The translations under genes and the position numbers were made by a program. Below are positions 1 to 62,953 of a stretch of DNA of 64,000 nucleotides, piece after piece. The stretch covers positions 900,792 through 964,791 of the forward strand of contig VIIQ02000575.1 in assembly GCA_007449985.2 (NCBI GenBank), written 5' to 3'. Source of the stretch: Desmodesmus armatus. Taxonomy: Eukaryota > Chlorophyta > Chlorophyceae > Sphaeropleales > Scenedesmaceae. The notes under the pieces are model-generated. The model ran no database searches, was not told where the DNA came from, and was given only the letters and a program-made list of their open reading frames with translations. The number at the start of each line of letters is the position of its first letter. The stretch's first letter is position 1.

Positions 1-3000
1 AGCTTTGTAGGAGAAGACAGCCCCGCCGCACCTCCAGCAGCTGGATCCACAGGCGGCCCGCTGCATCCTGGCCACGGCCTGCGCCTGCAGCCGTTGCTGC
101 AGCTGCCTGTCATTGTATCCATCCTCCTCCACAGTCCCAAGTGCGCTGAGGGAGTGCTTGACCAGCTTGAAGGTGTGGGAGTCCAGCAGCACCTGGCCGC
201 CATTCGCAACTTCGCTGACATGGTCTGGGGTGTTGATAGTCAGTTGGCGGGTTGGCCAACGTGTTGTTGGCAGGCAGCAAGCAGAAGGCAGCAGGAAGAG
301 TCTCAGGCTGGGTTCTTTTGCCGATATGGCCTCAGGCTAGCAGTTGATGGTCATCTAGCAGGCCGGTGCGACTAGGTAGGTGCACACAGCCTTCCAGCAA
401 TGAACGTTCCACATTGACTACAACTCAGCGACTTACTTTTCGCTCTCAAGAAGACAGCGCTGCTTCGAGGCTACACCCGTACGGGAGCCAGCCAGTCGCG
501 ACGCCGATTCGCACTGACAACCGTAGCTCCTGCGCTGCATGTGCTCCATCGGCTCCAAGCGGCTGCAAAAGACTGCTGTGCAAGCCACCGCGGACGACCT
601 GCGATAGCCGGTGCATGAGCGCACTACCCGCGGATGCCAACCGCGACGCAGGCCGTGAGCTCGCACCGCTGCCTGACCGCGGCACTGCATGCCCGTCGAG
701 CTGCTGCATGCTGGGACTGTCGATCCGGCAAAGGGAGACCCTTCATCGCCGCCAGAGGTGGTTTTGAAGAGCCCAAAGCCTTTGAAGCTGCTGCTGCTAA
801 CTGACTGCTGCGGCGGTCTCAGCTGCAGTTGCACAGGGCTGTCCTTGCTAAGCCGGGTGTCATCCGTGCAGGAGTTCTGCCTAGTTGCCACCTGACGCTG
901 CTCGGGCTGCTGCAGCTGGAAACCCAGCCTGAAACCTGCCTCGATATCAGGCTGTTGGCTGCTGTCAGCGCCCTGCCTGAGGCCTGTCGACGTAAAGCTG
1001 CACTCCTGACTGCGCTGGCCCAGCAAACTGCTGTTCTTGCCCAAGCTGCTCGCCCTGCCATCACTGGCTGCTGAGAAGCTGCCGTGCCTTGCACTGCCCC
1101 CCAGACTTCCCACAGGCTCCTGCCCGGACCCTGGACCGCCACCTGTCAGGGCCGGTGACGATGTGCCAGGCGCCATGAAGCCGTAGCTGGAAGTGGCGCT
1201 GTGGTCGCTGCCCTGGGTAGTGACTGAGCCCATGTGCGCCTGTGTGGTGATGTGGCTTGAGGGTATAGACGTGGGCAGCTTGAGGTTCCAGGACTTCTGC
1301 GCGAGGGCCTGCTGGACCTGCAGGTAGTTGACACCGGTCGCTTTGCGCTCAGCAGAATCAGTACTGGCTGCTAATGTGTACAAAGGGTTTGCAGGCTCTG
1401 TAGCAACAGCTACAGGCCCTGCGCACACGTTTGCTGTGCACAAGGGCGCTTTCACCAGCTGTCTCTGCGCACGCCAACTACATGCTGAGACAAGTCCAAC
1501 TTGGTGATTGCATTCGTAAGTGTGAATGGCACCAGCATGCCGTCTTATAATAACACCAACATTCCGCATGCATGCACAAGTACAGCACTGCCCGCCATGT
1601 CCAGCAGCATATCTCCTACCTGCAGCGCAAACGCAACAGCATCCTCCGCATCATGGAAGGCGATGGTCCAGCTGTCGCCCTCCTGGTCCAACACATGCCC
1701 TGCGTGTGCGTGGCATGCCTTGCGCATCATGTTGTTGTGGCCACCCATGGCCTTGTTTATAACCTCAGGGTACCGCCGGGTCAGGTCGCTAAAGTCCTTC
1801 ATATCGGTGACAACGACGCTGATCAACACCTTGTCGCCTGGCTTTGCCTTGGGCGGGCCCTTGGAGCGCTTGGTCTGCGGCAGGCGGCCGGGGCAATAGC
1901 AGTAGGAGCGCTGAGCATGCCATAGCTGTGTACACAGGACACACTAACCCAGCACTAGGAGCAAAAAGACCAAGTCGATGGTTCAGCGCGCACATGTAAG
2001 TAGCCTTCACAGTGGCCAACTTGCAGACAGACCGGGCTCACAGTGGCCTTCAATATTGGACATGCAGGTCGGAACACAGCGTCAGGACCATTCACCTGCA
2101 GCAGTCGTTCCCTGAGCCAACGGGGGCGCGTCCTCAGGTACTGCCGCCATAGCAGCAGAGCTGCTGCCAGCACTGTTACTGCTGCCACCGCGCATGCAAT
2201 GATGACGCTCTTGTGCTGGGCTGCTTTCTTCTCCTCCACACATGTCAGCACAGTATCGTAATCGCTCCAGACAGCAGTGCATCCCTGCAAGGCAAAACAG
2301 ACATGAAGGCTCAAGGGCGAACACCACATCTGAACCACTGATTTGGCACTTCAGGGTGTATAACCAGGCTTGGGGCTACCATGTAATCAAGTGGGGAAAG
2401 CAGTGGCAAGCCACGGCAGCTGTACCAAGCCAGTCTGTTGCAGTTTGGCATACACCATCTTGTGTGATGGACAACAGTGTGGCACGCCCGGTGAGATTGC
2501 CCCCGCTGTCACCACTGGTTTTTGTTCTATGTGCAAGCTTGCCTGGAGGCACTCGCAGGCTTGGTACTGGTAGTAGGCAGGGTCGATCTCCCACCGCGCC
2601 ATCTGTTTCTTTTCTGGGATAGCTGCAGCCTGCTCGCCCAAGGGCCCTTCGCAGTCTTTGCGAGCCTGCGTCGGGGACTTGCGGACAATCTCCTTGCACT
2701 TCATATTGCTCTCGTCGTCTTTGGGGAGGGCGAAGTCCGTGAATTGGAGAAAGCAAGGCAGCAGCGCATCTGGCGCGCACTTTATGGTGCCTGCCGACGC
2801 ATTGCCAAACTGCTGCGGAGTGCGGCAGAGTGTTGGGTCGGTGCAACTGTAGTTTGTGGTGACGACCTGCGCTTGAAAGACCAGCGGGCAGCACGCATCA
2901 TCCCATAACAATGAGTGCCAGACACAAGCTCGCGGGACATGCAACACTGCCTGGGTTACTGACGTTAGTATACATAGTATGGCTATGTATATGCCTGCAT

Positions 3001-37800: not shown

Positions 37801-40200
37801 ACTGGACTAGGGCTGAAGGTGGCTGTTGGGGTCAGCGGCTAGTGTGGCAGCAGTACTCAAGTTGTGCACTGCACCTGCAAGTATCAACGTGCTAATGAAC
37901 CAGGAGTGCGACGTACGCTGCGAGGGGGTAACCTTGCTGTAACACCTCCCCTTGTTGCTCCACTGCGCTGCATACCTGTGCAGGCACCTGGCTATCCTGT
38001 GTGACGTGATGACCTGCCGTGGGCACTTGATGGCCATCACTCGCCATGGCATCAACCGGACCGACTCCTCTCCACTGGCTCAGTGCAGCTTTGAGGAGAC
38101 GGTGGACATCCTGCTGAGGGCAGCAATGTACGCGGAGAAGGACCGCATGATGGTGAGTCACACCAGAGTGAAATCAAACAGATGTTGACGCAAAGCCAGT
38201 CGAAGCACAGTGACCGGCAGGTGTGCTGCCGGGTGCAGAGGGCACTGGCAGCTAGAGGTTGGGCTGTGCTCTGTCAGCACAGCCAACATTAGGTGCAAGG
38301 GGCACTGGGCAACTGAGTCTATGTGTGTCCGCGCAACATGGGTCAGTAGGCCTTGTGCTGGCACCTGCAGCTGAATGATGCATAAGGTGCTCCAGAACTC
38401 CTTTCGGCACACTCTGTGGCTTGGTGCTTGGCGCTCATGCTGCCCCTGTCGTGTTTTGATGTCGTGCTGCTCTCAGGGCGTCTCCGAAAACATCATGCTG
38501 GGCCAGCTGTGCCCCCTGGGTACCGGTGCCTTTGACCTGCTGCTGAACGAGGATGAGCTGGCTGCTGCTGTCGACCTGCTGGCTGACGATGAGGAGTACG
38601 AGTATGGGGACGGCTACATGACCCCTGGGCGCATGACACCCGGACACATGACGCCCAGCAGGACGCCGCACTACACACCCAACAGGTAGCTGCATAGTCA
38701 CACACCACCTCAGGCTTGCAGCCTCTCACTGTTAGATGCTGGTTGGCACAATCTTGAGCAGGCTTTTGGGGAGAGAGCTGTACCTGTGTACCTCCAAAAG
38801 GTTGGGTAATATATGCATGACTGTCACACACTTTGTCGCCTGGTGTGCTGCCGTTTTTTGTTCGCCTGCAGGGACCCTGACCAGTTGATGGACAATGTGC
38901 ACTTCTCACCCCTACGGGACATCCAGTTCAGCCCAATGCGCGGCTCACCAATGTCCCCAGGCGCCATCAGCCCAGCTGCAGGTGGGGGCTACAGTCCCAC
39001 CAGCCCTGGCTACAGCCCAACAAGCCCTGGCTACAGCCCGACGAGCCCCACCTACAGTCCTACCAGCCCTGGCTACAGCCCCACGAGCCCTGGCTACAGC
39101 CCAACAAGCCCGGGGTACAGTCCCACAAGTCCGGGGTACAGTCCGACGTCGCCTACGTACAGCCCTACGTCGCCGACTTACAGCCCAACAAGTCCGACGT
39201 ACAGCCCCACGTCGCCAACGTACAGCCCTACAAGTCCGACGTACAGGTGAGCAGGGACCCTGCACAGCATGTAGATCCACAAGCAGTATCAGCATGTGAA
39301 ATTGTTGAACCAGGGGATAGCGGCTTGCTGTGTGAAGGCGTTGAAACAGGCACTTGCGGCTTGTTTTTGTGTTTGCTGGTTCGTCAGCAATACATACCAC
39401 TGGTAGCTCACCTTGACTTGTACTGCTTGGCTGGCTGGTGTTCTTGCAGTCCAACGTCGCCGACATACAGTCCGACGAGTCCCACATACAGTCCGACGTC
39501 GCCAACTTACAGCCCGACGAGCCCAACTTACAGTCCGACGTCGCCGACGTACAGCCCAACGAGCCCTACGTACAGCCCGACGTCGCCAACGTACAGCCCT
39601 ACAAGCCCGACGTACAGCCCAACGAGCCCCACGTACAGGTGGGAGATTGTGGTGCCAAGGGGCAGCTAGTAGCATATGCTTGGACTGACACTCTCGGGTA
39701 GGGTTGGCAGGCAGAGTGAAGGCTCCTTTGGGCATTGTCAGCTCATTGCTGAGGGAAGATCAACATCAAATTCACCTTGCAGTCCTGAAGGCCTTGCCCC
39801 AGCCCCCCAGTTGACCTGGCTTCCTTCTCTTGTGTGCTGCAGCCCGACGTCGCCAACGTACAGCCCTACCTCGCCGCAGTACAGTCCAACGTCCCCGCAG
39901 TTCAGCCCAACGTCGCCGCAGTACAGCCCTACGTCGCCAGCGTACAGCCCGACGTCCCCGGCGTACAGCCCGACCTCGCCGGCGTACAGCCCCGGCAGTC
40001 CAGCAGCAGGAGCAGCAGCAGCAGGTGCAGCAGGAGGGCAGCAGCAGGGCGCAGCAGCGAGTCCAGGGTACAGCCCTCCGGAGCCCAACATCAGCCCCCC
40101 ACATGGTGGGGCGCCTGCAGCGGGTGGCAGCGGTGCAGGGCAGCAAGGCCTAAGTCCAGCAAGGGAGGGCGAGGGGGATGACATGCAGCTTGATGACTGA
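25805..40200 (+). CDS. RPB1: RNA polymerase II largest subunit (RPB1)
   Basis: Forms half of the Pol II active centre and carries the C-terminal domain (CTD). I place 36 exons; the first is 25805-25894, the last 39843-40200, and every phase agrees, giving 5505 coding bases (1834 residues, close to plant RPB1). Landmarks: the Mg-binding [18 protein letters not shown] in exon 13 (30024-30192); the funnel block [19 protein letters not shown] in exon 20 (32362-32606); the bridge helix region [17 protein letters not shown] in exon 21 (32922-33040); the trigger loop [20 protein letters not shown] across exons 26-27. Exons 34-36 encode 29 heptads, mostly YSPTSPT or YSPTSPG, then a tail ending DDMQLDD. 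Oddities: several zinc ligands near the N-terminus are replaced; intron 20 uses a GC donor (32607). The ATG was chosen because [21 protein letters not shown] matches the family start. Confidence 0.98.
33056..33162. other. AT-rich island in an RPB1 intron
   Basis: About 105 bp of strongly AT-rich sequence with TATAATTCAAAAA occurring twice (near 33063 and 33105), in the intron between exons 21 and 22. The surrounding DNA is GC-rich. No coding content. Confidence 0.8.
34716..34768. repeat. Two adjacent perfect hairpins in an RPB1 intron
   Basis: ATCCATTCCTGCT (34716-34728) pairs with AGCAGGAATGGAT (34732-34744) across a 3-base loop, and TCCACAGGACT (34746-34756) pairs with AGTCCTGTGGA (34758-34768) across one base. 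They begin 38 bases after the donor of intron 25. Confidence 0.9.
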
Positions 40201-41073: not shown

Positions 41074-42464
41074 TTACAGTGTTTTGTGCACCTTGTTCAA
41101 CAGCTCACTCAGCATATCTGCAGAGTGGTTTGCCACCAGGGAGAAGTGAGCCTCATCATGCAACAACCTCAGCTCAGCTGCAGGGATCTGCTGCTGCAGC
41201 CAATCGGCCATGTTCACAGTCACATTTACGTCAGCATCACCCTGGAATATGACTGTGGGTGCGCTGATGCTGCTTAGGTCAAAGTCCCAGGGCATAACTG
41301 TCAGCCGCATGTCGGCAAACAATCCCCTACTGCCCTGACAGAATGCATCAGCAAGCACGACAGGCAGGATCCTTAGAAACTTGCGCGGCTGCTGCATGAG
41401 GGCGGCCCTATCAGGGCGAGGCAAGGACACGCCCGCAAGCCACAGAGCTGCCTCCCCAACCCCTGTCGCTATCCTGTACAGCTGTGCACCACCCAGGCTG
41501 CCCCCACCGCTGCTGGAGATGTTGCCGGCTGCTGTTGTGTCAGCTGCTGTCATTATAGCTGAAGCTGCTGCTGAGGCAAATCGCACAGCTGGTGCTGCGA
41601 GTGCTAACCCGAAGCTTGTCAGCAGTGGGGCATATGCAATGCAGCTGAACCCTAGGCGGTTGAACCAGTCCATCCCTTGCACCAGGTGTGAGCTGCCGGG
41701 GCCAGCACAATGGGTCATAGAGGCTACTAGCCCAAGAGCAGAGGTGCTGTGGGGGTACAGTGCGGCACAGGCACATGCGTATGGGCCGCCACCACTGGTG
41801 CCGATGTGGATGACCTTGTTCAACTTGAGGTGACTGCGGAGTTCTGTCACGTCCTCTGCATAGCTGCCAAAGGAGCCTGCAAGGCAAACAGCATGTGGAA
41901 GCAGGCAGTGAGTCAGGAGGCAGCTAAAAAGAGGTGTGACATTGCTTGAATGCTATTTGTTTGTCACTGTTTTATGGCTCAAGGACTCTTGACCTGCAGC
42001 GGAGTGCAGCTGGCTGTACGGGCAGTATCCTTGCATTGGTGGCAGGCATGTGCAGCACCTGACAGGAGCATTGTGTACAACAACACACCAAGCTGGCATA
42101 TGCTGCTGCTGTTGAGATTGAAAGACTGCTGCTGCTTCAAGAGTGTACCTTGTAGGTTGAAGGTGGAGGCAGCGACACCGGGCTTATCAATGGCAACAAG
42201 TTGCACCCGCTGCTCAGCAGCTGCCTGGTGCCAAGCACCAATTTCTGCCGCGCTGCTGGGCCAGCCATGGTGGTAGATGACAGTGGCTGCTGCGGCAGCT
42301 GCTGTTGTCTCGTTGCTCGAGTCTGGCACCGTTGCCCGAGTCTGTGGCCACCCAGCAAGGTGGTAAGACAGTAGCCGGCCATCACGTAACTGCAGCAGCC
42401 GCTTGGTTCCCATTCTGTGCATGACATCTATGGTAGTGGAGCTTCGTGGTTGCTCCTCCAGCAT
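41074..42464 (-). CDS. Alpha/beta hydrolase-fold protein
   Basis: Probable serine hydrolase, substrate unknown. Exon 1 42464-42149 and exon 2 41876-41074 join in phase (STFNLQ to GSFGSYAEDV) for 372 residues. Exon 1 has the oxyanion-side HHGWPSS and the strand AIDKPGVAAS. Exon 2 has the nucleophile elbow HIGTSGGGPYA (G-x-S-x-G), a helical Ala-rich cap, the acid strand FQGDADVNVTV and the catalytic His in LLHDEAHFSL, so the triad is complete. The order and spacing fit the epoxide-hydrolase/haloperoxidase-like branch, but motifs alone do not fix the reaction. There is no clear signal peptide. An internal Met in frame at about 42422 (MHRMGTKRLL) is an alternative start. Confidence 0.85.
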
Positions 42465-51659: not shown

Positions 51660-54554
51660 TTGGTCCACCGAATTGTATATTGGGCCAACGCCGTGCGCTG
51701 GTATTGCCGGATTGCTGCGATGACACCATATCCAGATGGACGTATCGCGATGCTTCATTCCTGCGTCAAGTGGTGGAGTGAGCCACCAATTCATCAATTG
51801 GGCTTTACTGGCAGGGCTGCAGTGCACACAGGTGAGCAGTGAACACCTGGGCCCTTGGGTTGCAGTTGCCTTGCTCGCATGCAAGCATGTGGTGCGCAAC
51901 AGCAGGGAGGGGTGCTGTTGTGCACAGCACGCCATGCGCGCAGGAACGCTCTCAATCAAAAGGCCCCTCTGCTTCCTGCGCTGCCTGCAGGCATTTGGGC
52001 ACTTTGGCTGCTGCTCATGCAGTATGCCGTGCTGGGCCTGGCGGCATTGTGTCAGAAGGCGCACCTCAAGAAGTACCCCGCAAATGTGCCCTCTCCGAAG
52101 GTCTCCCGCCTGCGCATGCTGGCAGAAACCAGCCTGGGCTTGGTCGGCTGGTCCTGGGGGATGGGTCTGGTGGCAGCCTGGATCAAACCAGGGGCAACAG
52201 ATGGCTGGCAGTGGAGCTACGAATGCCCAAACCTGTTGCTGATGGGGTACTATGCAACAGTAGTGCTCATGGCCTATGATGCCTACAGCTACTTCGTCCA
52301 CAAGTGGATGCACAACAACAAGACGGCCTTCAACCTCATGCACAAGAAGCACCACGACCCAAAGGCGGCCCTAGATGCTACAACCTCTGGCTACCAGACC
52401 CTCGCCGAAGGCGTCGTGTCAGGAGCCCTGCCCCTCGCAGCATCGTACATGCTAGGGATGGCGACAGGCAACTGGTGGCTGACTCTGGCAGGTGCGATCA
52501 CACATTGTACACACGTTACAACTGGTCATCATGACATGTACCTGATGGATGCAACTCGTGTGTTCAACAACATGCCTGATTGCCTGCAGAGCAGCGCGCC
52601 TTGCCTGACGCCCTGTGATTGTGCCGCAGCAGTATCGCCTTGCCTAGGCTGTGGCCTGCTACTAGGAAAAGCAGGCGGGCAGCTCATGCTGCTGAGCTTG
52701 CTGTTGCAGAGCCCCTAGCATTGTATGACCCTGCTGCTGCTTGCTATAAGTGACTCGCACCCAGCAATGACAGGCTGTGTCGCATACGGCATGTGATGAC
52801 CCCTCCCTGCAGGCATTTGGAACAGCCAGCTGACCACAATGCTGGGCCACTGTGGTGCCGAGATCACAATGAATGACGCGAGGGATTTACTGGTCACTGC
52901 CATAAACCCCTTTGGCCTCTGGTACTACCTGATTCCCTGCCACTCGACACCCATGAAGCATGCTGACCACCATATGTTCCCAAGGCAAGTTGATCAGTTC
53001 TTGAGTTTGGGTAATGTTCAATCGCCAGGATCTGCACGCTTTCTGATATTGGCTGCTACAGCTAGCCATCTCTGCAGTACAGGTTGTGGGTGTGATGGGC
53101 GCCAGCTGCACAAATTTCAGCTAGCATCTCTGCACCTTCCGTCGCCATACTCACATCCACGTTTGCGCTGCTGGTTTGGGGTGCTGTCGCTTGATCCTCA
53201 CTTGCAGGAGGAACTACAGCTTCTACTTCACGTACTGGGACGACAAGTACGGCAGCAGCTACCCCGCCATGCCACCCTGCACCCTGCTTGTGCTGGCAGC
53301 ACACGCCCTGTACCAGGCAGCCCTCTTTGCAGCCATATACCTCTTCATCACCCGGCCCCTGCCCACCATGGCCGTGTATGTCACAGCCTACCTGCTGATA
53401 CCTGCCTCGGCCGCGTCAGCTGTAGCAGAGCTCCTGCACCTGCCAGACCTCACCCGGCTGCTGCTCGGCAGGCTCATGGACGCCTACAGATCCGACAACT
53501 GCATCACTTACGCAGCAGCAGGCGCCCCGGGGTCCTTCCAGGCAGCTCTCGCACCAGGAAATGCAACAGCAGGGGGTGCCGGGCAGACCGATGCAGACCG
53601 CCCAGCACCCTCTCCGCTGCACATCTTTGCCGTGCACCCAGCAGGCATGATCAGCCGCTCAGCATTCTGCACCTTTGCCGCTCGCGGCTGGTGCAGTCCG
53701 GTGTCCTGCCTGACCCAGATCCGGCTTGCAGTCGGCAGCCAGCTGTTTGCAATGCCGATCCCGTTCCTTCGCGAGTTCCTGCTTGCATGCGGCTGCGTCC
53801 CCGCTGATCGCGGCAGCATGCTGCGTGCACTGGGTGCCGGCCGCAGCTTGGCAGTCACTCCAGGTGGTTGGCGGGAGGGGCAGTTCTACGGCAGCTACAA
53901 GCTGGTGCTGAAGCAGCGCAGGGGCTTTGTGCAACTTGCGCAGCAGAGTGGCGCCGTACTGGTGCCTGTGCTGTGTCTGGGCGAGCAGGAAGTGGCGACA
54001 GCACTAGCACCGGGTCCGCTGCTGTGGGGCTACAGGTTCATGCAGACCTTCAGGCCACACCCTGTCAAGGTTGTGTTCGGCAAGGTGAGGCTGCAGGGCC
54101 ACTTAGATGAGACTGGTGAACTAGTGCACCGTGATGGCATTGGAGGCAATGGCTATCAAGTGGCTCTCCAAACCCTTAACCCCAAACCCTCAGGCTAGCC
54201 ATGTACAGCTAGGCTGTGGCACACCAGCTCACCTTGTGAGCTTGTGGCAAGCAAAGATCCCGTGGGGCGAGGAAGGTAGGAATGGCTCATGCAGTCGAAG
54301 GTGCCATGTCAATTGTCACGGTGGTGGCTAGCAGCCCCATGGGCTTGACCACGCCCTTTGACTTCTGCGACATTTTTGGCACAAAGATTGCCTTGAACAT
54401 TCCTGAAGCTTGCGCATGTTGTCTGCTGTGTGTGTTCCTCTTGCAGGCTGTGCAACCGCAGGTGGCTGAGAGCACTGAGCAGCTGCACAGCCGCTACGTT
54501 CAGGCACTGCTGGCTTTGGGTAAGGAGCACGGCGTGCAGCTGGAACTGGTGTGA
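51660..54554 (+). CDS. Fatty-acid hydroxylase/sterol desaturase fused to a DGAT2-like acyltransferase
   Basis: One gene with two lipid-enzyme domains. Exons 51660-51831, 51991-52491, 52813-52984, 53208-54084 and 54447-54554 total 1830 bp, in phase throughout (609 residues). Residues ~60-290 form a membrane di-iron hydroxylase: helices (IWALWLLLMQYAVLGLAAL), His boxes HKWMH, HKKHH and HADHH, and the typical end SFYFTYWDDKYGSSYP. In the same exon come two hydrophobic helices (LVLAAHALYQAALFAAIYLF) and then a DGAT2/MGAT-type domain: HPAGMISRSAF, TPGGWREGQFYGSYKLVLKQ, RRGFVQLAQQSGAVLVPVL. It closes with the family's C-terminal helix ESTEQLHSRYVQALLAL. HPAG replaces the usual HPHG. Intron 3 has a GC donor (52985). 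Likely ER-bound. A linked hydroxylation and acylation of one lipid is inference. The start is tentative; 51660 fits the phase. Confidence 0.87.
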
Positions 54555-55636
54555 GGTACTACCGCCGGTACTGAGTACGCGTACCGGTTACCGGTACCCT
54601 TGGGTATACCCACCAGATCAGACTACATGCCCCCCGTGGCAGCTGGCATGACAGTTGAGGTGGCCTCGCAGCCTTTGGGCTGTCCTGCAAGGGGCACATG
54701 TTGACGCGAAGCATGTTGTGTTGTGCAGGGTCCTTTTTGCTTGAGGGGTCATACATTTGCAGGACCTTGCATGCAGCGCATTTACTGCGGGGTTGACCAT
54801 GTGGGCTGCAACAATTTGACAACATTTTGATCAGGGGAGTTTACTTGTAGCTTGCCATCCAAAGGTGTTGCTGCAGGGGCTCCTTGCCTAGTGTGCTCTG
54901 CTGGGCAGTCGTCCACCAGTGCGTTGTTTGTGGGTTCTGCTTTGCAGTGGTGATGTACGGAGCTTGTTTGATTTTGCTTGGCAATCAGTGCGTCACCGCA
55001 TGCCAACTGCACAGTTGGCAACCCCACCTGTCTTCACCATTGCCTCTAGGTGTATTGATACTACACGTCTATGTTTGATATGGCATATGCCTTATGGCAT
55101 TCTACATGTCAATGTCTAATATGGCATATGCCATATTGCATGGCATGCCTGCTATGGCATCCACACTTGAAACACAAGCCAGCTTTTGCAGCAGCGCTGC
55201 AAAGCGTGCTGGCATGCCGGACGAGCGGAGGTGTGCCCCAGCGTGTTGCTGTGACAGTGTTTGTCACTGTCAGTCCTTGTGGTGCGGCCATCCATGCATG
55301 TATGGATGGGACACGGCAATTCATTCTGTCGGTCCAGTTTAATGGCTGCAACAGCCAGGGGATTTGAGTGTTTTACTGAGTGTTTCATCAGGGCGAGCCT
55401 GCTGGGATTGATCTTGGTGGTGTGGCGGTTGAGGGCTGAGCGGCAGTTCCTGGCGGCAGTGATGCAGCCACCACAAGGTCTATGCAATCTATTTACAGAG
55501 TGGTGTGAGGTGTCACCATGGTGTGAGGTGTCATCATGGTGTGAGGTGTCATCTTGGCGTGATGTGTCATCATGGCGTGAGGTGTCATCATGGTGTGAGG
55601 TGTCATCATGGCGTGATGGTGGGTGGCACGTTGCCT
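54555..55636. other. Intergenic between the fusion gene and the transposon units
   Basis: Holds TACCGGTTACCGGTACC-type repeats just after the stop (near 54585), a perfect 20 bp palindrome at 55118-55137 within ATATGGCATATGCC-rich sequence, and the 18 bp minisatellite at 55500-55617. No gene was recognised. Confidence 0.45.
55500..55617. repeat. 18 bp minisatellite, about 6.5 units
   Basis: The unit GTGTGAGGTGTCATCATG varies at a few positions (GTGTGA/GCGTGA, CATCATG/CATCTTG). As the period is 18 it stays open in all frames, giving a WCEVSS-type peptide repeat that is probably not translated. It ends 20 bp before the first transposon unit. Confidence 0.9.
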
Positions 55637-56311
55637 CAGTGGGGCAAAAAGTAACTTGGCACAGCCAATAACCTTGACTTTGCTTGTGGTGCAGCCAGCA
55701 GCAGGCAGCAAGCTAGAGCTAGGGGCTGCCAGCATGTTTCAGTAGCAGGCACACACCTGTAACAGCACACCTGTATGAACACGAGTCCTGTGCTGAGGGC
55801 AAGATAGGGCCGTTTGACCAAACTGGGGTCGACTGCTGCACTGCCAGGCTCCACACAAGCAGCTGCAAAAGCCCAACTGTCAGTGTCTGGGGGGACACTG
55901 CCTTGCTGCACACGCAATGCAGCGCTGGCCAGGGGAGATAGCTGATGTACAGGAAAGAATGCAGTAAAGAGACGAATTTGGGGCAGCGCACAGCAGCAGC
56001 TGCAGCGCAGGCAGATCAACCTGTCGATCAAGCAGCAGCTGGCCAACGACCTGCACACTCACACCACGCACTGCCACCAACAGGCGCCCAAGACACTTGA
56101 ACGTTTGCACAGCACCCACGTTCCCCCTTACAGTTCGAATCCTGGAAGTCAAGGTTGTTAGGCGATGTGGACGGATGACCAATAGCCAGCAGCAGCTAGA
56201 GCCCCCGAGCAAAGTCCCAGGGTATCAGATATATCAAGTAGTTTTGCTTGATGCAGCGCAGGTCCCGCCACACGCGCCCTGAAACTAGACAAGTTACTTT
56301 TTGCCCCACTG
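55637..56311. mobile_element. Module bounded by perfect 22 bp inverted repeats (copy 1)
   Basis: The left end CAGTGGGGCAAAAAGTAACT (first 20 of 22 bases, 55637-55658) and its exact complement (56290-56311) bound 675 bp. CAGT ends suit the Tc1/mariner group, but no TA duplication flanks it. A plus-strand segment near 56000 (QRRQINLSIKQQLANDL) resembles a transposase helix-turn-helix start; in copy 2 it is in frame with an ATG at 60232. This is either an inserted MITE or the true 5' part of the transposon. Confidence 0.7.
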
Positions 56312-56415
56312 CACTCTCCAGTGAGAACCGGTCAAAGTTAGGGTTTAGCCAAGTGTACCCTGTACCCTGGTAGTGGCTGACAAGTGCCGCACACTGCACC
56401 TGCTGCTGCCATCTT

Positions 56416-58677
56416 TTGCGCTGCGCTGAGGAATTGCTGCGAGAGCATGTCAGGGGCACCAAGTACGCCCAGGAAAAGACGTGGGTGAGGGTGTTGGGGT
56501 GCATGTTATGCGTCATGTTTCTGGGGCAAGCTGGGCCAGACTTTGCCAAGGCGCACCATGCCCTGAAGGGCATTCTTGACTCTCTCAATCAGCAGCTGCC
56601 AGAGGACGAGCAACAGTTCATTGGTAGCAAGGATTTCAACTACTTGCGCACCTGGTGGGGTCATTGGATTGAGAACGGGAGTGTGGACGATGCACACAGG
56701 TCTGGCCGTAGTCGCAAATGCAACGAGAAGGAGGCTCTTGAAGCAGCTCAGATTTGCAAGGAGGGGAAGCTTGTTGAGGAGAAAGTGAAGGGCAACACAG
56801 TCATGCACAGGGTACACTTCACCAGCCTGGGAGAGGCCATCAGGGAGAGCCCCCGTTTGAAGGAAATTATGACCAACAACGGCCTCAAGTTTTCAGACCA
56901 GCTGCTGCATGCCATGCACGACGCTGACCCCTCCCTTGTGCGCCGCAAGCTGTTCTTCAAGCACTCCTTCACAACACAGGAATTGGAGGAGCGTGTGGAC
57001 TACGCCAAGCACTGTTTGGGCATTCATGAGGATTGGCCAGCATTCTTGAACCACACCATTTACATTGATGAGTCTTCATTCACTGTCGACAGGTACACTG
57101 AGTCTGATGTTTTTGTCTGGTGTGACAAGCATGACCTCAACTTCTCTGATGTGGTGCCGAGGAAGCTGAAAAAGGGCCACAAGCATGTCACTGTGAAGTT
57201 CATTGTTGCAGTGACCGCCCACCCCGCCTTTGCGCACAGAGGGGGTGTGGTGTATATGGAGTTCACCACTGGAACCACCAAGATCCAACGGCACATCAAC
57301 ACAAGGCTGGATGGCAATGCGGTAGAGCGGGACATGGAGTACGAGGTGAGCCTGTTACATTGGGGAAATTGTGTGATTGCCGTAACCGTCAGTGTGACCC
57401 TGGCAGTTGGGAACTAACCACTTCAGCAGCTGCAAATAGGGCACATCAAAGGAACCCCAGCGCACTAGCGCTGTACTATATGAGCGTGTCAGCACAAGGG
57501 TGTAGCCCATTGCCGCAGACTCAAGGGCGGCAGCAATGCAGTCAGCATTACCAAGATCCTCTGTGTGCACCCGCACCAGCCGACCACCTTGCTGCACTGC
57601 TGCCATGTTCTGCATCATGTCGCGCCGCAACACCACCCATGTGCTGTGGTGGTACTTAGCAACCCAATGGCACCTCCCATCCACCTGCACAAAGTACCCC
57701 TGCTGCATGTGGAAGAAGTCCATGGGCCACGGCCAAAAAGCCGGCACCACCTGAAGGCTGAACTCCCTGTCCACCCCCCACCTCCTCAACAGGTCCATGA
57801 AGCTCAGCTCACAGGCTGGTAGCACACGCATGCCCTGCTGCCTCCATGCCTCCTCACTGTACAAACAGAAGGCACACCACAGATCACAGGGGTCCCGCAC
57901 TGTTGTGCTAGTTGCCACCCGCAGGTGGGGGTGCCACGGGGATACCCTTGGAGCCGCCAATGCAACTGGTACTCTCCTGAGTAGTGGCCAACTGGCAGGG
58001 AGGTGCCATCAGGGAACCACAGCTCAGCCCCATCACTGCCATACTTCTCAACCCTGAGCCCCTCCCCCCGCATGGCACGTAGCGCCCTGAACTTCCACTG
58101 AGGCATCTTCCCCGTGCCCCGCCTCCTTTTTGCTTCCCTGCAGATTCAAGACGGCAGCCGCAAGGCAGGGAAGATGACCAGGGAGGAATTTGAGAACAAC
58201 CTCTACCACATAGTCAAGGAGTGGAACAAAGTAACAAAGCTTGCTATCTTCTGGTTGTCTTATGACAATGACGCCGTCCAGGCAACTGCCACGTGGGAAG
58301 TGGTGGTGAACCCCAATGACCCCACCGACACGATTGACGTCCGTGTCAATGGCTGTAAGCTGCCTCTGCCCTCCTACAGCCATGACTTGAACAGGCCTAT
58401 TGAGCACCTGTTTGGTACTGTGAAGCACCACCTCAGGTGCCAGCTGTATGAGGATTGGAGCCTCCTTGATGACCACACCAAGTTGCAGGACATGGTGCGC
58501 AAGGTCTTTTACAATCTGCCTACGTATGGCTGGGCTCAGCATGTGGAGAAGGATGTGGCAGGGCTTCCTCAGCTGTGGCAGATGCTGAAGACCCCACAGG
58601 TTGTTTCTTACTTGGATGAGAAGCACCGTGTGTGTGTGGGGGCTGGGGGCGATTACCCCAACGCCTATGCTCGTTGA
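56416..58677 (+). CDS. Tc1/mariner-like DDE transposase, two exons
   Basis: Cut-and-paste transposase. Exon 1 from about 56416 to 57345 and exon 2 58144-58677 are separated by a 798 bp GT-AG intron (GTGAGC at 57346, CTGCAG to 58143). Exon 1 has a DNA-binding part with the Tc1-type linker NGSVDDAHRSGRSRK, then the first catalytic Asp in TIYIDESSFTVDRY. Exon 2 has the second Asp in FWLSYDNDAVQ and the Glu in YSHDLNRPIEHLFGTVKHHL, the counterpart of SPDLNPIE. About 45 residues separate the second Asp and the Glu, more than in most Tc1/mariner enzymes. The frame is open in both exons, so the copy may be functional; the 5' end is uncertain and may include an upstream exon near 55925-56100. Confidence 0.8.
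57355..58106 (-). CDS. Antisense ORF in the transposase intron, Vsr/PD-(D/E)XK-like nuclease, one frameshift
   Basis: The ATG is at 58106 and the stop at 57355, so about 750 of the intron's 798 bp are coding on the other strand. The N-terminal part is MPQWKFRALRAMRGEGLRVE; then come a Cys-containing segment (CDLWCAFCLYSEEAW) and the core WPWPMDFFHMQQGYFVQVDG followed by RCHW, RRDMMQNMAAVQQGGRLVRV. The acidic strand, VDG-x3-W/H strand and later basic helix with G-x-x-V-R-V match Vsr-like/DUF559 nucleases. Copy 1 shifts frame near 57945 (AAGGG against AAGG in copy 2), where copy 2 reads through. That its frame is conserved over most of its length in both copies argues for real coding. The nuclease role is inferred from motifs. 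Confidence 0.62.
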
Positions 58678-59923: not shown

Positions 59924-60701
59924 CAGTGGGGCAAAAAGTAACTTGGCACAGCCAATAACCTTGACTTTGCTTGTGGTGCAGCCAGCAGCAGGCAGCAAGC
60001 TAGAGCTAGGGGCTGCCAGCATGTTTCAGTAGCAGGCACACACCTGTAACAGCACACCTGTATGAACACGAGTCCTGTGCTGAGGGCAAGATAGGGCCGT
60101 TTGACCAAACTGGGGTCGACTGCTGCACTGCCAGGCTCCACACAAGCAGCTGCAAAAGCCCAACTGTCAGTGTCTGGGGGGACACTGCCTTGCTGCACAC
60201 GCAATGCAGCGCTGGCCAGGGGAGATAGCTGATGTACAGGAAAGAATGCAGTAAAGAGACGAATTTGGGCAGCGCACAGCAGCAGCTGCAGCGCAGGCAG
60301 ATCAACCTGTCGATCAAGCAGCAGCTGGCCAACGACCTGCACACTCACACCACGCACTGCCACCAACAGGCGCCCAAGACACTTGAACGTTTGCACAGCA
60401 CCCACGTTCCCCCTTACAGTTCGAATCCTGGAAGTCAAGGTTGTTAGGCGATGTGGACGGATGACCAATAGCCAGCAGCAGCTAGAGCCCCCGAGCAAAG
60501 TCCCAGGGTATCAGATATATCAAGTAGTTTTGCTTGATGCAGCGCAGGTCCCGCCACACGCGCCCTGAAACTAGACAAGTTACTTTTTGCCCCACTGCAC
60601 TCTCCAGTGAGAACCGGTCAAAGTTAGGGTTTAGCCAAGTGTACCCTGTACCCTGGTAGTGGCTGACAAGTGCCGCACACTGCACCTGCTGCTGCCATCT
60701 T

Positions 60702-62953
60702 TTGCGCTGCGCTGAGGAATTGCTGCGAGAGCATGTCAGGGGCACCAAGTACGCCCAGGAAAAGACGTGGGTGAGGGTGTTGGGGTGCATGTTATGCGTC
60801 ATGTTTCTGGGGCAAGCTGGGCCAGACTTTGCCAAGGCGCACCATGCCCTGAAGGGCATTCTTGACTCTCTCAATCAGCAGCTGCCAGAGGACGAGCAAC
60901 AGTTCATTGGTAGCAAGGATTTCAACTACTTGCGCACCTGGTGGGGTCATTGGATTGAGAACGGGAGTGTGGACGATGCACACAGGTCTGGCCGTAGTCG
61001 CAAATGCAACGAGAAGGAGGCTCTTGAAGCAGCTCAGATTTGCAAGGAGGGGAAGCTTGTTGAGGAGAAAGTGAAGGGCAACACAGTCATGCACAGGGTA
61101 CACTTCACCAGCCTGGGAGAGGCCATCAGGGAGAGCCCCCGTTTGAAGGAAATTATGACCAACAACGGCCTCAAGTTTTCAGACCAGCTGCTGCATGCCA
61201 TGCACGACGCTGACCCCTCCCTTGTGCGCCGCAAGCTGTTCTTCAAGCACTCCTTCACAACACAGGAATTGCAGGAGCGTGTGGACTACGCCAAGCACTG
61301 TTTGGGCATTCATGAGGATTGGCCAGCATTCTTGAACCACACCATTACATTGATGAGTCTTCATTCACTGTCGACAGGTACACTGAGTCTGATGTTTTTG
61401 TCTGGTGTGACAAGCATGACCTCAACTTCTCTGATGTGGTGCCGAGGAAGCTGAAAAAGGGCCACAAGCATGTCACTGTGAAGTTCATTGTTGCAGTGAC
61501 CGCCCACCCCGCCTTTGCGCACAGAGGGGGTGTGGTGTATATGGAGTTCACCACTGGAACCACCAAGATCCAACGGCACATCAACACAAGGCTGGATGGC
61601 AATGCGGTAGAGCGGGACATGGAGTACGAGGTGAGCCTGTTACATTGGGGAAATTGTGTGATTGCCGTAACCGTCAGTGTGACCCTGGCAGTTGGGAACT
61701 AACCACTTCAGCAGCTGCAAATAGGGCACATCAAAGGAACCCCAGCGCACTAGCGCTGTACTATATGAGGTGTCAGCACAAGGGTGTAGCCCATTGCCGC
61801 AGACTCAAGGGCGGCAGCAATGCAGTCAGCATTACCAAGATCCTCTGTGTGCACCCGCACCAGCCGACCACCTTGCTGCACTGCTGCCATGTTCTGCATC
61901 ATGTCGCGCCGCAACACCACCCATGTGCTGTGGTGGTACTTAGCAACCAATGGCACCTCCCATCCACCTGCACAAAGTACCCCTGCTGCATGTGGAAGAA
62001 GTCCATGGGCCACGGCCAAAAAGCCGGCACCACCTGAAGGCTGAACTCCCTGTCCACCCCCCACCTCCTCAACAGGTCCATGAAGCTCAGCTCACAGGCT
62101 GGTAGCACACGCATGCCCTGCTGCCTCCATGCCTCCTCACTGTACATACAGAAGGCACACCACAGATCACAGGGGTCCCGCACTGTTGTGCTAGTTGCCC
62201 CCGCAGGTGGGGGTGCCACGGGGATACCTTGGAGCCGCCAATGCAACTGGTACTCTCCTGAGTAGTGGCCAACTGGCAGGGAGGTGCCATCAGGGAACCA
62301 CAGCTCAGCCCCATCACTGCATACTTCTCAACCTGAGCCCCTCCCCCCGCATGGCACGTAGCGCCCGAACTTCCACTGAGGCATCTTCCCCGTGCCCCCC
62401 TCCTTTTTGCTTCCCTGCAGATTCAAGACGGCAGCCGCAAGGCAGGGAAGATGACCAGGGAGAATTTTGAGAACAACCTCTACACATAGTCAAGGAGTGG
62501 AACAAAGTAACCAAGCTTGCTATCGTTCTGGTTGTCTTATGACAATGACGCCGTCCAGGCAACTGCCACGTGGGAAGTGGTGGTGAACCCCAATGACCCC
62601 ACCGACACGATTGACGTCCGTGTCAATGGCTGTAAGCTGCCTCTGCCCTCCTACAGCCATGACTTGAACAGGCCTATTGAGCACCTGTTTGGTACTGTGA
62701 AGCACCACCTCAGGTGCCAGCTGTATGAGGATTGGAGCCTCCTTGATGACCACACCAAGTTGCAGGACATGGTGCGCAAGGTCTTTTACAATCTGCCTAC
62801 GTATGGCTGGGCTCAGCATGTGGAGAAGGATGTGGCAGGGCTTCCTCAGCTGTGGCAGATGCTGAAGACCCCACAGGTTGTTTCTTACTTGGATGAGAAG
62901 CACCGTGTGTGTGGGGGGCTGGGGGCGATTACCCCAACGCCTATGCTCGTTGA
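60702..62953 (+). pseudogene. Tc1/mariner-like transposase, copy 2, frameshifted
   Basis: Same layout as copy 1: exon 1 to 61630, intron 61631-62420, exon 2 from 62421. A lost T near 61345 shifts frame just before the IYIDESSF catalytic strand, so exon 1 reads out of frame until about 61325-61700, where the other frame resumes. Exon 2 has further indels near 62461 and 62485 (GAGAATTTTG, CTACACATAG) that bring an early stop, and one near 62912 that changes the C-terminus. As read, no full transposase can be made, unless these are assembly errors. Confidence 0.75.
61640..62384 (-). pseudogene. Antisense nuclease-like ORF in the transposase intron, copy 2, frameshifted
   Basis: Equivalent of the ORF at 57355-58106. 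Here the middle is continuous (LQGIPVAPPPAGATSTTVRD, where copy 1 is shifted), and the acidic core PMDFFHMQQGYFVQVDGRCH is intact, but one base is missing near 61947 (CCAATGG against CCCAATGG) just after the core, and others near 62316-62366 break the N-terminus. Breaks in the two copies fall at different places. Confidence 0.6.

Follow-up and report, generated by a model that had tools for sequence, protein, structure and literature searches.

Does one gene of the green alga Desmodesmus armatus join a di-iron lipid hydroxylase to a DGAT2-type acyltransferase and, if so, would its product carry out both reactions? Oxygenation and acylation are usually separate steps toward esterified sterols, xanthophylls and storage lipids. 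The locus lies within the 64,000 bases of DNA that we analysed (the window), which are the terminal part of contig C546 (964,791 bases) in an assembly of 115.8 Mb and 831 contigs; coordinates refer to the window, and all features of the gene are on its plus strand. The genome yields 49 chlorophyll a/b-binding matches, as expected of a green alga; one of these genes, read from two exons, matched light-harvesting chains in the PDB, first a chain of 620 residues (E 1.8e-142), whose score probably adds up repeats, and then chains of ordinary size at 357 bits or below.

Five exons join in phase into a stop-free coding sequence of 1770 nt (589 aa). Position 51660 carries no ATG, and the earliest in-frame ATG, at 51720, opens exon 1 (51720..51831, delimited by exon joining and by comparison with paralogues). 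In the paralogues on contigs C74 and C526 the start codon corresponds to Met11 of the window model (51750), and neither has an earlier ATG in frame; the protein is therefore likely to start at the second ATG, 51750, and to be 579 aa long. Exon 2 (51991..52491, supported by paralogue alignments and hydropathy) encodes a hydrophobic N-terminal segment and the first two histidine boxes; exon 3 (52813..52984) encodes GHCGAE and the third histidine box and is followed by a GC donor; exon 4 (53208..54084) holds the hydroxylase end, a hydrophobic hairpin, a linker and the acyltransferase blocks in a single open frame; and exon 5 (54447..54554) ends in the stop codon TGA. Three of the four introns are GT-AG and intron 3 is GC-AG (AAG/GCAAGT...TTGCAG).

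Exon 5 has a second copy on contig C547 (L055, 13.8 kb), positions 1-3000 of which match window positions 54299-57299 at 99.4%, from the last intron of the gene onward and with exon 5 included; this contig is likely to represent the other haplotype or a duplicate. A stretch of ~1.66 kb is present twice in the window (about 55637-57299 and 59924-61584), its second copy also being matched by C547 1338-3000 (99.9%), and the two copies carry open frames of 347 and 264 codons with like beginnings, the first without a Pfam match. Elsewhere in the window, tandem repeats of the type found in the C-terminal domain of the RNA polymerase II large subunit occupy 38987-39992, with a Pfam RNA_pol_Rpb1_R match in the frame 38881-39663, and an open frame on the minus strand (41080-41952) has an Abhydrolase_1 match (31.1 bits, cut-off 25.8).

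Residues 127-277 of the predicted protein match Pfam FA_hydroxylase (PF04116) with 53.7 bits against a curated cut-off of 31, and the sequence and its alignment reveal the histidine boxes HKWMH (HX3H, residues 141-145) and HKKHH (HX2HH, residues 155-159) at 52299..52355, followed by HADHH (HX2HH, residues 254-258). The histidines H141/H145, H155/H158/H159, H217 and H254/H257/H258 are invariant in all four proteins aligned (those of the window, C74, C560 and C43). The original prediction of a di-iron-type hydroxylase is thus upheld by the boxes and the Pfam match, at the level of sequence only, and since the boxes are intact we infer that the protein would hydroxylate. In its Pfam match and its HX3H/HX2HH/HX2HH pattern it resembles the FA_hydroxylase superfamily of sterol desaturases/oxidases and fatty-acid/sphingolipid hydroxylases, from which it differs by a C-terminal DGAT2-like domain.

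This second domain gives a Pfam DAGAT match (PF03982) at residues 400-525 (53620..53997), with 68.6 bits against a curated cut-off of 22. It is preceded by a candidate hairpin, suggested by hydropathy peaks at residues 287-305 and 316-334 with Pro 327, which lies in a linker (53254..53619, defined by hydropathy and codon comparison) that ends in a variable tail. Across the linker of 119-134 codons, compared among four loci (window, C74, C526 and C560), synonymous change exceeded nonsynonymous change in all six pairs (Fisher p 1.8e-4 to 5.3e-9). By this codon comparison the linker is under purifying selection, and two separate genes are therefore very unlikely. The in-phase exons, the presence of the DGAT2 blocks together with the end of the hydroxylase in the frame of exon 4, and the order hydroxylase then DGAT2-like domain in one gene had all been proposed originally; each was borne out, the last by Pfam, by recurrence of the order and by conservation of the linker, and the predicted join is confirmed as that of one gene. 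The claim that no enzyme with this order is known also found support, in that none of the papers listed by searches of the open-access literature treats a hydroxylase-DGAT2 fusion, judged by title or abstract start; the words hydroxylase, desaturase, fused and fusion are all absent from PMC5343412. The window protein had no match in NCBIfam. Against solved structures, the whole protein gave a single match (E 0.54) that we take as chance, and neither its profile nor its acyltransferase part gave any; an AlphaFold2 model built from the exon 4 sequence alone was unusable (mean pLDDT 37.3).

Places matching FA_hydroxylase number at least 10 in the genome, on 10 contigs, and at six of the 10 listed (C546, C526, C74, C560, C43 and C785) a DAGAT-like sequence follows downstream on the same strand. 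Two others, on C92 and C21, may be a fatty-acid 2-hydroxylase and a sphinganine hydroxylase, respectively. DAGAT matches fall on 14 contigs, five of which are fused loci, C785 being without a DAGAT match among those listed. The domain order of the window gene is repeated in C526, C74, C560, C43 and the damaged C785, and the window gene is demonstrably one member of a small family of predicted fused genes. In the divergent C43, FA_hydroxylase (52.7 bits) and DAGAT (24.0 bits) both exceed their cut-offs within one uninterrupted frame of 489 codons, its hydroxylase being read through where the window clade carries introns. The model for C560 is likewise intact (six exons, 577 aa, GT-AG at all five introns).

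The original prediction overlooked that the DGAT2 motif is altered. Around it the window protein aligns with mouse DGAT2 without gaps (HIFAVHPAGMISRSAFCTF vs YIFGYHPHGIMGLGAFCNF) and reads HPAG (53635..53646, Ala codon GCA at 53641-53643) at the position of HPHG in DGAT2 enzymes. The third residue is Ala in the window, C74 and C526 (HPAG) and Thr in C560 (HPTG, interrupted there by the extra intron), and, of the five fused copies that could be read, the divergent C43 is alone in retaining His (HPHG). Variants at the first position occur on C86 and C545 (YPHG) and on C584 (APHG), none of these contigs being among the listed FA_hydroxylase matches. According to PMC3157451, the third His of HPHG is completely conserved among the DGAT2s compared there, and its table for mouse DGAT2 gives '~50-60%' for H161A and '< 20%' for H163A, which we read as remaining activity. 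In thraustochytrid DGAT2C, as described in PMC10686087, H644A (third position) yielded no detectable sterol ester despite wild-type-like expression, and H642A still produced it, so that the first His is not essential. On this description, the predicted window protein is a natural equivalent of the inactive H644A mutant. Of the 16 conserved DGAT2 residues named in PMC3157451, 15 could be placed (E339 could not, the printed mouse residue 339 being G), and 13 of the 15 are kept: in mouse numbering, H163 is Ala, and of P162, P202, R205, G239, G240, E243, R259, G261, F262, A266, V274, P275, F279 and G280 only F279 is changed, to Leu. The window protein therefore shares with the DGAT2 family its Pfam match, the preceding hydrophobic hairpin and these 13 residues, but is not classed as a DGAT2 enzyme because of HPAG, the Leu at F279 and the hydroxylase in front.

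What these two halves would do together was originally proposed as hydroxylation followed by acylation. For C43, with its HPHG, acylation is plausible and the proposal may hold. For the window copy acylation is doubtful, given the Ala at the third position and the behaviour of the H644A and H163A mutants. The window protein could nonetheless be bifunctional, hydroxylating and also acylating, in which case the base would be the first His of HPAG or some other residue; the 13 of 15 invariant residues that are kept could equally mean an active enzyme with a different base, the acyltransferase half is under strong purifying selection, and HPHG is present in the C43 relative. Set against this are the identical His-to-Ala change in DGAT2C, after which no product was detected, the tolerated loss of the first His in that enzyme and the low value for mouse H163A (PMC10686087 and PMC3157451), and we regard a bifunctional window protein as unlikely, though the best of the alternatives.

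The reading that we prefer, at about even confidence, is a membrane fusion protein that combines a hydroxylase with, in the window gene, a lipid-binding pseudo-acyltransferase, C43 being possibly bifunctional. A nuclear gene would give rise to one membrane protein comprising a di-iron oxygenase of the FA_hydroxylase superfamily, a hydrophobic hairpin and a DGAT2-like domain, in the order read directly from the DNA. The C43 form, because both its halves keep the key residues, could hydroxylate and esterify a lipid in one membrane complex. Ala or Thr takes the place of the His essential in DGAT2 in the window gene and the paralogues close to it, where purifying selection is still strong and most of the remaining invariant residues are kept; here the DGAT2-fold half would bind acyl-CoA or a neutral lipid and present or sense the substrate, with no efficient acyl transfer. 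Such retained, non-catalytic binding is favoured over simple decay, since no other part of the protein is as well conserved as the altered domain (84-88% identity among the window, C74 and C526).

Thraustochytrid DGAT2C/ASAT offers the closest working analogue found. As described in PMC10686087 and PMC8821962, it has a multi-transmembrane N-terminal region before its DGAT2 domain and acts on sterols, transmembrane regions nine to twelve being proposed to recognise the sterol. Compared by description only, the window protein is similar in having a long multi-membrane N-terminal region and then a C-terminal DGAT2 domain, and differs in carrying HPAG where the thraustochytrid protein has HPHG with a required third His. 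The word 'hydroxylase' appears in neither main text and 'desaturase' in one, in another context only. Since this analogue, as those texts describe it, acts on sterols, a sterol-like substrate for the hydroxylase is a reasonable guess, no more. The same precedent would suit a fused protein that acts chiefly as an ester synthase or as the regulator of one, with the hydroxylase half serving as a sterol-binding membrane module; yet the hydroxylase histidines, superfluous for mere binding, are kept in all four aligned proteins, and the essential His is missing from the window acyltransferase, which makes this improbable.

Another arrangement of this kind is known from phytyl ester synthases, which consist of an alpha/beta-hydrolase plus DAGAT. 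The window protein is like them in having another enzyme domain before DAGAT but, unlike them, has no alpha/beta-hydrolase match in Pfam up to E 1.

Some members of the family are damaged as assembled. C526 has a frame change at a 29-base tandem repeat in exon 2. In C74 (L021, about 2568-2901), CAA replaces the expected CAG acceptor before exon 4, at the equivalent of intron 3; exon 3, intron and exon 4 there stay open in a single frame over 571 codons, and read-through would insert residues without a stop. C785 (L023, reverse strand, near the contig end) is a C43-type fused copy with frame changes and two stops, whose match to the fused C43 protein extends into the acyltransferase. These defects may be assembly errors or real decay, and some fused copies may be dying, as the frame change, the lost acceptor and the stops would suggest. 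A decaying family, in which a formerly working fused gene is being lost, the window copy included, would also account for the absence of HPHG from four of the five readable copies. However, the models for the window and C560 are intact, HPAG is common to three loci, and dN/dS (Nei-Gojobori) is below 1 for every segment and pair computed: 0.13-0.32 for the exon-2 hydroxylase segment (later part only for C526), 0.17-0.52 for exon 3, 0.25-0.36 for the hydroxylase end and linker, 0.15-0.24 for the acyltransferase (six pairs of four loci) and 0.15-0.46 for exon 5, values for pairs including C560 being rough, with high dS. We hold decay of the window copy to be quite improbable. Least credible is that two neighbouring genes, or a gene-model artefact, have been taken for one: open-frame length by itself is weak evidence of a gene (in a first-order simulation, the longest frame reached at least 357 codons in five of 30 64-kb windows), but the join falls within one exon, the linker codons are conserved over four loci and C43 carries both domains above cut-off in its single frame, and we reject this explanation.

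The two halves of the fused genes gave different trees. Five fused sequences used in the acyltransferase tree formed one group (86/94; 84% of 200 bootstrap trees), in a data set that left out C785, C547, C1, C81, C116, C153 and C158 and in which C584, C211 and C86 were less than half filled. In the hydroxylase tree, with C227 and C601 less than half filled, the six fused sequences did not group (a single fused group in 2% of 200 bootstrap trees), and C43 and C785 were placed with C227 (82/81). A single clade of fused hydroxylases was not rejected by the AU test (p 0.151). The fusion may have arisen once, long ago, with later loss, or in two separate events. Among viral contigs and among bacterial and archaeal genomes, two scans each (two peptide patterns per scan; 117, 115, 134 and 58 pattern-matching stretches) and two alignments confirmed no relative; because of the two patterns per scan and a collection without eukaryotes, these negatives are silent on other algae.

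Tentatively, and at somewhat less than even confidence, we propose that green algae evolved a polypeptide that oxygenates and esterifies lipids, represented by the C43 form, and that in the sub-branch of the window gene the acyltransferase half became a non-catalytic module, still conserved, that would bind acyl lipids and steer or regulate the hydroxylase. If so, this sub-branch would hold a naturally 'dead' DGAT2 retained for a new job. A family of single proteins in which the acyl-transfer His is kept in one branch and lost in the other is a natural setting in which to test the coupling between hydroxylation and esterification and to see if the DGAT2 fold can act as a lipid-binding regulator; its C43 form could allow yeast or algae to make esterified hydroxy-lipids from a single gene.
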